Assembly: GCA_902622545.1 (NCBI GenBank) | Contig: CACNQD010000004.1 | Coordinates: 1-64,000 of the forward strand | Origin: an uncultured Pelagibacteraceae bacterium | GTDB lineage: Bacteria; Pseudomonadota; Alphaproteobacteria; Pelagibacterales; Pelagibacteraceae | Reading direction: 5' to 3' | DNA: 64,000 nucleotides | Shown: positions 39,946-44,288 of the stretch, piece by piece | Numbering within the stretch: the stretch's first letter is position 1 | Layout of the letters: every line of letters starts with the position of its first letter | Position numbers and translations under genes: made by a program | Notes under the pieces: generated by a model | Told to the model about the DNA's origin: nothing | Seen by the model: the letters and a program-made list of their open reading frames with translations, nothing else | Databases searched by the model: none

Positions 39946-41140
39946 TAGCTTGCTCTTTAATTGGTAAGTGTATTAAACCTGCAAAAATTGATAATGCAAT
40001 TGCCAAATACCACGCATAGTCATAAGAGCCATACAAATCATAAAATAATCCTCCTAGATAAGCTCCAAAGAATGATCCAATTTGATGGCTTAAAAAAACT
40101 AACCCATACAATAATCCCAAATACTTTGTTCCAAAAATATGTGCAACTATCCCACTTGTTGCAGGAACAGTTGATAGCCACAAAATACCAAAGCTTGCTC
40201 CAAAAAAAATAGAGCCTAATGTGCTAGGGGGTAAGAAAATAAACAAACATATTGAAACACCTCTTAAGAAATAAATTATACTTAAAATTGTTTTCTTTTT
40301 TCTTTTTGTGCAAAGATAGCCACTCATAAGTGATCCAAAGATATTAAATAACCCTATCAAAGATAATATCATTGCAGCAGTCCAATCCTCTAGGCCTCTA
40401 TCAATTACATATTTTGGAACGTGAGTTCCAACTAATGTTATATGAAAACCACAAACAAAAAATCCAGACAAAAGTAATAAATAACTTTTATATCTAAAAG
40501 CTTCACTTAAAGCTTCAATCGTTGACTGACTTCCTCCATCTTTTGTTTCATTTATTTGAGGCGAACGAACAAAAAATGATATCAGAAAACCTAACGACAA
40601 AAATAACATGAAATAAAATAATGTTTGTACCCATCCATAATTTCCAAGTGAATAATTTGTGAATAGTGGTGATAAAAAATATCCAAATGACCCTACTGCC
40701 GTTACAATACTCATCGCGATAGTTCTATTTGATAATGGAAAATGCTTACCAACAATCGACATTGGTATGCTTATGGCTGTTCCACCACATCCAATTCCAA
40801 CGAGAACACCTAACCAAATTTGAAAGTAAATTCCTGTATTAGGACCATTATACAAAAAGTAGATACCAATAATGTAAAACACAAAAGCTAAAGATATAGC
40901 TTTATGCCCACCGTATTTATCAGCAATTGCTCCAAAAACTGGGCCAGATAAACCCCAGCCTAACATTTGTATACCAATAGCTAAACCAAATTCAGTGTTA
41001 GTAATTCCTAAATCTGCATTAAAGTCCATGAAGAACATGCCAAACACTTGTCTTACACTTAAAGAAATAAAAACTACAAGTGATGCTGCAATTAAAGTAA
41101 CTAATGCCAAATTACTTTTTATGAACTTTTCTGAGCTCAT
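39923..41140 (-). CDS. MFS transporter
   Basis: 12-TM pattern; GPVFGAIADKYGGHKAI. Confidence 0.85.
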   Translation of the reverse strand: MSSEKFIKSNLALVTLIAASLVVFISLSVRQVFGMFFMDFNADLGITNTEFGLAIGIQMLGWGLSGPVFGAIADKYGGHKAISLAFVFYIIGIYFLYNGPNTGIYFQIWLGVLVGIGCGGTAISIPMSIVGKHFPLSNRTIAMSIVTAVGSFGYFLSPLFTNYSLGNYGWVQTLFYFMLFLSLGFLISFFVRSPQINETKDGGSQSTIEALSEAFRYKSYLLLLSGFFVCGFHITLVGTHVPKYVIDRGLEDWTAAMILSLIGLFNIFGSLMSGYLCTKRKKKTILSIIYFLRGVSICLFIFLPPSTLGSIFFGASFGILWLSTVPATSGIVAHIFGTKYLGLLYGLVFLSHQIGSFFGAYLGGLFYDLYGSYDYAWYLAIALSIFAGLIHLPIKEQAIERLQKA

Positions 41141-42312
41141 TTAATAAACCTTAATGATCTTTTTAAGTCGTTTATTAAATCTTTAGGGTCTTCCAAACCA
41201 ATATGTAACCTAACGATGTGTTCATCTTTTGATAAGTTCAAGTATTTTCTTTTTCCTTGTTCTTTTATTTTTTGGTGCAACGCTAAACTTTCAAAACCTC
41301 CCCAACTATAACCATAACCAAACAATCTTAAAGAGTTAACAAATCTATCTATGGAGCTTATATTTCTAGATTTTATTTTGAGGCCCATTAGACCTGAGGA
41401 GCCTTTATAATATTTTTTCCACATCTTGTAATCTTTAGTTCCTTTTTTATGAGGATATAAAACTGTAATCTTTTTATGTTTACTTAAAAAGGAAGCAATT
41501 TTTTTTGTATTTATCTCATGTCTATCTAATCTTGTATCCAAAGTTCTGAGACCTCTAATTATTAAATAAGCATCATCAGGTCCCATTCTTAAACCAGAAA
41601 TTTTTTCTGCTTTTTGAACAAATTTAAATACCCTTTTATTGACTGCTAAACTTCCCCCCATCACATCTGAATGTCCAGAATAATACTTGGTTGCTGATAC
41701 AATAGCCATATCAAATCCCAACTTAATAGGTTTTAGAAAATATGGAGTTCCCCATGTATTATCCATAGCTGTAAAAATTTTATTTTTTTTTGCAATAGAA
41801 ATTATTTTTGAGAGATCTTGAAATTCAAACGTGTTACTGCCCGGATTTTCAACAAATATTAATTTTGTTTTTTTTGTTATATTATTTTTTAGTGTGGATA
41901 AATCTCTCGGATTATAAAATATGGCTTTAATATTAAAATCTTTAAAAAAATCCTGAGTTAATATTCTTGTAGGACTGTATACTGGGTCAGAAACAAGAAT
42001 TTCATCACCAGGTCTTACTACACTTAACATTGCAAGAAAAACAGAACCAAAACCAGTTGGTGTTAGGAAAACATGATATGATTCCTCTAATTTTGTTAAA
42101 ATTTTCGATAATGCATGTGTTGTTGAAGTTCCTTGCCTTCCATAATCAAAATGGCCTGCTGTAGGATCTTTTAAGTGTTTTTTTTGAGTTTTTCGAATGT
42201 CATTAAGAGATTTAAACAAAATTGTAGATGCTCTAACAACCGGAGGATTTACAGACTGATTGTAGAAATCTTTAGCTGTATGTTTTAAAAAAGTTTTGAA
42301 TGAATAATCCAT
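41137..42312 (-). CDS. metC: Cystathionine beta-lyase-like PLP enzyme (ORF open to 42408; start likely MDYSFK)
   Basis: NPPVVRASTILF, YGRQGTSTTHAL, VSATKYYSGHSDVMGGS. Confidence 0.87.
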   Translation of the reverse strand: MDYSFKTFLKHTAKDFYNQSVNPPVVRASTILFKSLNDIRKTQKKHLKDPTAGHFDYGRQGTSTTHALSKILTKLEESYHVFLTPTGFGSVFLAMLSVVRPGDEILVSDPVYSPTRILTQDFFKDFNIKAIFYNPRDLSTLKNNITKKTKLIFVENPGSNTFEFQDLSKIISIAKKNKIFTAMDNTWGTPYFLKPIKLGFDMAIVSATKYYSGHSDVMGGSLAVNKRVFKFVQKAEKISGLRMGPDDAYLIIRGLRTLDTRLDRHEINTKKIASFLSKHKKITVLYPHKKGTKDYKMWKKYYKGSSGLMGLKIKSRNISSIDRFVNSLRLFGYGYSWGGFESLALHQKIKEQGKRKYLNLSKDEHIVRLHIGLEDPKDLINDLKRSLRFIK

Positions 42313-42387
42313 AAAAAATTTGATAACTAAATATGACAATGCTATATCCCACATATAAGTCAATAAAATAATAAAAGGAGAAAACTT

Positions 42388-42471
42388 ATGGGATACCCAA
42401 AAAAACATCGTGGTAGAAGAAAGATGGGATCAAAAAAAAGAAGGGCTAGAAAAAAAAATAAGAAAAAATAA
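42388..42471 (+). CDS. 27-aa extremely basic protein (candidate small ribosomal/RNA-binding protein)
   Basis: Read directly: MGYPKKHRGRRKMGSKKRRARKKNKKK*, preceded by strong SD aaggag at 7-nt spacing; absent from ORF list. Confidence 0.75.
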   Translation: MGYPKKHRGRRKMGSKKRRARKKNKKK

Positions 42472-43172: not shown

Positions 43173-44288
43173 TTATCGAGTAATCCAGCCTCCGCCTAAA
43201 ACTCTATCACCATCTATATCTTTTTTATAAAAAACACATGCTTGACCTGGTGAAATACCATATTCATCTTCTAATAGTGTTAAAGAAGTTTTGCCATTAT
43301 TTAAATTTAATTTAGATTTTAATAGTTTGCCAGTAGATCTTACTTTTACAAAAATTTTTTCATCAAAAAATTTCTTATCAGCTAAGAGATTTAAGTTTTT
43401 TAAATTAATATTTTTTTTTATTAATTCTTTTTTTTCACCAACTATTATCTCATTTTTATCAGAGTTAATATCAATCACGTATAAAGGCTCTTTTGCTGCG
43501 ATTTTAATTCCTCTTCTTTGACCTATAGTAAAGTTGACAATTCCATCATGTACTCCTAAAACTTTACCTAAAGAATCTTTTATATTTCCTTTTTTAAATG
43601 CATCAGGTCTGAATTTTTGGATAACTGACACATAATCACCATTTGGAACAAAGCAAATATCTTGACTGTCAGGTTTGTCTGCAACATTTAATTGAAGTTT
43701 TTGTGCTATTTCTCTGGTTTCTTTTTTTAATAATTTTCCTAATGGAAATCTTAAAAAGTTTAATTGGTCTCTAGTAGTGTTGAATAAAAAGTAGCTCTGG
43801 TCTCTGTTTGTGTCAACGGCTCTATACATTTCCGTTTGATTATTTTTTGTTATACTTTTAACATAATGACCAGTAACTAAAGCATCTGCTTTAATATTTA
43901 ATGACTCTTGAAATAAATCATTAAATTTTACAGTCTTATTACATTGAACACATGGAATAGGTGTTTCTCCTTTAAGATAGCTATCTACAAAGTTGTCTAT
44001 TACGCCTTCCTTAAACTTATTTTGATAATACAAAATTTTGTGTTCAATATTTAATTTGTTAGCTACTCTTTTCGCATCAAATATATCTTGACCTGAGCAA
44101 CAAGTTTTTGAGGCAGCTACCTCTTTATTGTCATCATATAATTTCAGTGTAATTCCAATTACTCTATAGCCCTCTTTTTTCATCATGCCTGCAACAGTAG
44201 AAGAGTCTACCCCTCCAGACATTGCAACAACTATAGTTGTATCTTTTGGGCTCTTTTCAAATCCAAGAGAATTTAAAATATTTTTCAT
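43173..44288 (-). CDS. mnmA: tRNA-specific 2-thiouridylase MnmA
   Basis: [38 protein letters not shown]. Confidence 0.96.

Follow-up and report, generated by a model that had tools for sequence, protein, structure and literature searches.

A strongly constrained 27-amino acid basic protein of SAR11 bacteria as a candidate ribosomal protein

The SAR11 bacteria, which rank among the most abundant in the ocean, carry a gene that is missed by gene finders and encodes a 27-amino acid protein that is almost letter-for-letter constant across the group. The product of this gene, MGYPKKHRGRRKMGSKKRRARKKNKKK, is unannotated and patchily distributed among bacterial lineages, and on balance we favor the interpretation that it is an rRNA-binding protein that functions in the ribosome or in ribosome assembly. 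The gene was examined in a window of 64,000 nucleotides (the whole stretch of DNA analyzed) from an uncultured member of the Pelagibacteraceae (Table 1). Whatever its role, it represents a strongly constrained protein family absent from Pfam, NCBIfam and PDB, and indicates that streamlined, 'minimal' genomes harbor constrained genes that are not listed in their annotation.

Table 1. Features of the small-gene locus (positions are those of the window)
Feature	Position	Strand	Basis
27-aa hyperbasic protein MGYPKKHRGRRKMGSKKRRARKKNKKK	42388–42471 (ATG to TAA, stop included)	+	Sequence; conservation within the genus and across phyla
Shine-Dalgarno sequence AAGGAG	42375–42380	+	Sequence; 7 nt before the ATG of the small ORF
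Probable promoter: TTGATA (42320–42325), 17 nt, TATATC (42343–42348) with TGC before it	42320–42348	+	Conservation in 60 aligned loci
metC-like Cys/Met metabolism PLP enzyme, divergent neighbor	41137–42312	-	PF01053, E 6.7e-92; start 42312 conserved
Predicted membrane protein, 229 aa	42483–43172	+	ORF 11 nt after the stop of the small ORF
mnmA (tRNA 2-thiouridine synthase), convergent	43173–44288	-	NF001138, E 2.7e-123

The small gene and its start signals

The ORF lies exactly where the preliminary description of this DNA had placed it. The encoded protein, with a predicted pI of ~12 and a mass of 3,340 Da including the Met, contains 10 K and 6 R, that is, 16 basic residues among 27 (59%), and the count of 19 given in that description has to be lowered accordingly. 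No other ATG-started ORF of 20–60 amino acids in the window reaches a K/R content of 45%. The window is AAA-rich and has 30% G+C, a composition that could by itself give rise to spurious basic ORFs.

The spurious-ORF reading is ruled out by the comparative data, and the probability that we would still assign to it is vanishingly small. In a genome search, 32 of the 37 same-genus genomes matched MGYPKKHRGRRKMGSKKRRARKKNKKK, with 100% identity in 23, and one copy was found in the source genome. The 60 loci collected from the same genus comprise 59 distinct coding sequences, in which 21 of the 27 codons show no changes other than synonymous ones and amino acid replacements occur at 5; the mean pS is 0.58 and the mean pN 0.030, for a pN/pS ratio of ~0.05. 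Upstream of the ORF, Shine-Dalgarno-like motifs are present in 58 of these 60 loci, and a Shine-Dalgarno sequence of at least 5 bases occurs in 72% of them compared with 6% after shuffling of the same 20 bases. Because variation is synonymous only at most codons, pS far exceeds pN and the Shine-Dalgarno signal stands well above the shuffled background, the ORF is not a product of chance and, by these comparative measures, is a real gene under strong purifying selection. The retention of the Shine-Dalgarno sequence and the promoter, and the presence of the same protein in GC-rich Gemmatimonadota, likewise speak against a spurious ORF. The original proposal of an overlooked, functional basic protein is thus strongly supported by selection, start signals and phyletic spread; the conservation and dN/dS check across SAR11 genomes that had been suggested along with it came out in its favor.

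The strongest conserved block upstream of the gene in the 60 aligned loci is ACAATGCTATATCC (42336–42349), and it is because of this conservation that the overlapping element is assigned as a promoter, given that it was not among the hits of a generic promoter scan. The small gene probably has its own promoter, located in the gap between the ORF and the divergent metC-like gene. The preliminary description had also argued for 42312, rather than 42408, as the start of the metC-like gene, and this assignment gains support from the alignments: an in-frame metC-like ATG is located 73–77 nt before the small ORF in all 15 loci displayed, out of 48 scored, whereas only 3 of the 48 have such a codon within the small ORF, at the site of the 42408 start. 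The metC-like protein itself shows full cystathionine beta-lyase-type similarity but, among the NCBIfam equivalogs listed for it, falls below the cut-offs.

Genomic neighborhood and phyletic spread

In several SAR11 genera, the small gene lies beside the gene for the 229-amino acid hydrophobic protein, for which no Pfam or NCBIfam family was matched, and in the source clade the two genes are probably co-transcribed. Given that the stop of the small ORF in this clade almost abuts the next ATG (Table 1), the ORF could be construed as a leader peptide (uORF) regulating the downstream membrane gene. However, the membrane gene is absent from beside the small gene in three SAR11 genera (g5–g7), where mnmA, in convergent orientation, comes next, and in other families and phyla the neighbors are unrelated whereas the protein is unchanged. 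Because the protein persists in the absence of a fixed downstream gene, and a fixed linkage to a regulated gene does not hold across genera and phyla, the leader-peptide role is rejected as largely refuted and very improbable.

The linkage to mnmA extends over all sampled genera of the SAR11 family, and the metC-like neighbor is not kept across all lineages. In three other alphaproteobacterial families, the 27-amino acid copies have as neighbors a gene for a sigma factor like rpoH, a pair of MFS and msrB genes, or a LysR-like gene, names that were assigned by reading of the translations. The contexts of the small gene are unlike one another between lineages, it stands alone in many settings, and no linkage to ribosomal operons was observed. 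In one of the Gemmatimonadota (L146), the gene is preceded by a frame whose translation resembles a tRNA-modification protein of the Sua5/YwlC type; the adjoining mnmA of SAR11 is also involved in tRNA modification, a coincidence that is possibly due to chance. In a gammaproteobacterial MAG with 57% G+C (L165), the same protein is encoded downstream of an ilvC-like gene, near a contig end, which could reflect either transfer or a binning error.

Within the order, a profile search yielded matches in 223 of the 298 genomes, ~220 of which are real, the three weak matches in the sister family (f2; E ~0.07–0.14) having proved upon inspection to be chance hits in other frames. The small gene is present in every sampled genus of the main SAR11 family (f1). 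Six genomes of this family that lack a match were examined for mnmA, and these absences are best explained by assembly gaps because five of the six lack mnmA as well, and in the sixth mnmA is cut at the contig end; the gene hence appears to be near-universal in the family. In the sister family, the profile search did not find the small gene, nor did inspection of the surroundings of mnmA reveal small basic ORFs. This family (L114–L117) thus has no recognizable copy although more distant Alphaproteobacteria carry one, a pattern that could result from loss, replacement or transfer.

The spread of the gene outside SAR11 is wider than envisaged in the preliminary description, encompassing, on the strength of the profile and pattern searches, other Alphaproteobacteria, one gammaproteobacterial MAG and several Gemmatimonadota. 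The class-wide profile search produced strong matches (E 1e-10 to 1e-13), all exactly 27 amino acids long, in the three alphaproteobacterial families mentioned above. A scan of GTDB genomes with a back-translated pattern, which excluded SAR11 itself and was restricted at position 16, so that the actual range may be wider, detected 53 loci, among them HIMB59-type Alphaproteobacteria, MarineAlpha6, the gammaproteobacterial MAG and five Gemmatimonadota with 64–69% G+C; each of these has its start codon, ATG or GTG, two codons ahead of the YP dipeptide. A search of 399 Gemmatimonadota genomes returned ~7 convincing matches, including 33-amino acid forms, for example MGYPKKHRGRRKIGSKRRRMRRKRRKGLRLRKK, and the diverged MSYPRKHRGRRKMGSKKRHMRNKIRGHH, in GC-rich carriers (60–72%), along with two weaker matches that look like chance. 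Among 399 genomes drawn from the whole of Pseudomonadota, the two belonging to SAR11 were the only ones to match, and a tblastn search of 50,697 phage records gave no match to the small protein. The family is patchy and, in these samples, rare across Pseudomonadota and Gemmatimonadota as a whole; the patchiness may reflect either transfer or repeated loss.

The family members, 27–33 amino acids in size, share the core M[GAS]YP[KR]KHRGRRKxGSxxR, in which Y3, P4, K6, H7, R8, G9, R10, R11, K12, G14, S15 and R18 are invariant and K5 is nearly so; the residues found at position 2 are G, A and S, and those at position 13 are M, I, V, R and Q. This core is constant, across phyla, in genomes that range from ~25% to 72% G+C, and therefore the basicity of the protein cannot be attributed to drift in AT-rich DNA.

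Relationship to tiny ribosomal proteins and possible function

Searches of Pfam, NCBIfam and PDB with MGYPKKHRGRRKMGSKKRRARKKNKKK, diverse members of the family or profiles yielded no match. For a 30-amino acid member, taken to stand in for MGYPKKHRGRRKMGSKKRRARKKNKKK, AlphaFold predicts a single helix (residues 6–29; mean pLDDT 85) with a low pTM, as expected for a single helix, and a Foldseek search with this predicted helix returned no matches. The kinship initially suggested for the protein, with bS22/mS38 or with bTHX, is not borne out by sequence comparison. Neither PF08213 (COX24_C) nor PF17070 (Thx) matched MGYPKKHRGRRKMGSKKRRARKKNKKK in hmmscan or any protein of the source genome, even at E 10; a profile search detected no COX24_C proteins in eight other carrier genomes, and no Thx protein scored over the cut-off in 290 Alphaproteobacteria, in a search of limited sensitivity in which only the Thermus control matched.

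Because K/R-rich sequences align by virtue of composition, relatedness was assessed with permuted alignment columns and with hhalign; the bS22 sequences were taken from solved structures, and the comparison also covered eL41 and several other ribosomal proteins. The similarities of bS22, mS38, bTHX and eL41 to the small-protein family all fall within the composition-matched null, with the bTHX alignment scoring below the permuted mean and eL41 giving p values of 0.24–0.53 in the permutations and 0.29 with hhalign. None of bS22/mS38, bTHX, eL41, bL32, bL34, bL35, bL36 and bS21 emerged as a relative beyond composition. The N-termini of bL32 and bL35 look alike to that of the small protein by eye, but their best p values, 0.03 and 0.07, which came from consensus strings under just one of the two gap settings, fail correction for multiple testing.

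The bS22 proteins of Actinomycetota, Bacteroidota and Borrelia, along with mitochondrial mS38, are 28–33 amino acids long, ~60% K/R, helical, extremely conserved, patchily distributed among phyla and readily overlooked in annotation. The positively charged fraction of bS22 and eL41 is 55–65% (PMC10085706), or 61% K/R by another count (PMC10618245); Borrelia bS22 remained unannotated until cryo-EM (PMC10618245); and of 929 Streptomyces genomes, 99.89% carry an identical bS22, a share that no other protein reaches (PMC13118837). The small protein has a similar size and charge and a predicted helix, but only the family described here has the fixed core YP[KR]KHRGRRKxGS. Similarly, eL41/aL41 of eukaryotes and archaea is a hyperbasic single helix of ~25 amino acids that has no glycine-containing N-terminal core, and bTHX, which is basic, 26–27 amino acids long, begins with MG and ends with KKK, has instead the core GKGDxxTxxGKxxxG (in the Thermus protein).

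The most specific version of a ribosomal role is that the small protein is a divergent counterpart of bS22/mS38/eL41, a helix inserted between h27, h44 and h45 of 16S rRNA and bridging to H67/H68 of 23S rRNA. The size, charge and predicted helix agree with this possibility, the residue at position 13, which comes after the basic run and is usually M, I or V, is reminiscent of position 12 of bS22 (M, V or I), and no COX24_C protein was detected in the source genome and the eight other carriers. Conversely, permutation and hhalign detect nothing beyond composition, YPKKHRG, the most invariant part of the protein, has no bS22 equivalent, and position 13 can also be R or Q, so that we consider such a counterpart doubtful. 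The sequence comparisons themselves neither support nor exclude a bS22-like site because accepted bS22 proteins of different phyla are equally undetectable: in the same tests, the bS22 of Bacteroidota and spirochetes could not be linked to actinobacterial bS22 either, although they share one site, and the Bacteroidota and actinobacterial proteins superpose in one 30S pocket (PMC10085706, PMC10618245).

Peptides of bS22 and eL41 are inhibitory in vitro, acting on bacteria or on translation (PMC10085706), which brings up the possibility of a secreted or antimicrobial basic peptide. This appears highly improbable: the small protein has no signal sequence, its gene has no constant neighbor for immunity or export, and such peptides tend to evolve fast, which the small protein does not. 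The K/R content and the pI would also befit a DNA-binding nucleoid protein or an RNA-chaperone peptide that neutralizes nucleic acid charge, but a non-specific binder need not hold ~12 exact positions across phyla, and protamine-like tails vary freely, whereas here only the C-terminal half does; this role seems rather unlikely.

The retention of the N-terminal core over the entire range of G+C content implies a specific, conserved partner, and the loose K/R helix that follows implies that this partner is a polyanion. The most conserved polyanion common to the carrier bacteria is rRNA, and the known proteins of such size, charge and conservation, namely bS22, eL41 and bTHX, are ribosomal, which is why we lean toward an rRNA-binding protein of the ribosome or its assembly; the rRNA target, the residence in the ribosome and the site there are what we infer from this reasoning. 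In such a scheme, the conserved promoter would drive transcription of the small gene alone or with its neighbor, the Shine-Dalgarno sequence would serve its translation, and the N-terminal Met would probably be cleaved off, given that residue 2 is G, A or S throughout, which would leave a protein of ~3,209 Da. Trypsin would cut so basic a protein into very small pieces, and this could account for any absence from proteomes. The YP[KR]KHRGRRKxGSxxR segment, which hardly varies, would contact a conserved pocket of the rRNA in a specific manner, and the remainder would run as a basic helix along rRNA phosphates, stabilizing the fold or a subunit bridge, as do bS22, eL41 and bTHX. It is conceivable, though less likely than not, that this is a new ribosomal protein family with an rRNA site of its own, unlike those of bS22 and bTHX, universal in the main SAR11 family, shared with some Gemmatimonadota and absent from the family databases searched.

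If the protein is ribosomal, the SAR11 ribosome contains a component that is absent from the family databases on which annotation relies. The persistence of the core in phyla with such different base compositions would then point to a conserved rRNA pocket that is filled only in some lineages, as is the case for bS22 and bTHX, and the family bears on the gain and loss of tiny ribosomal proteins.

No paper containing the string YPKKHRGRRK was found in the literature searched. An intergenic-region survey of the SAR11 strain HIMB5 reports short ORFs, three or more in number, whose function is undefined (PMC6429828), and the small ORF could possibly be one of these, in which case that survey would be an earlier sighting. 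The main text of the survey describes its new HIMB5 motifs as confined to SAR11 or metagenomes, whereas the family described here reaches further.
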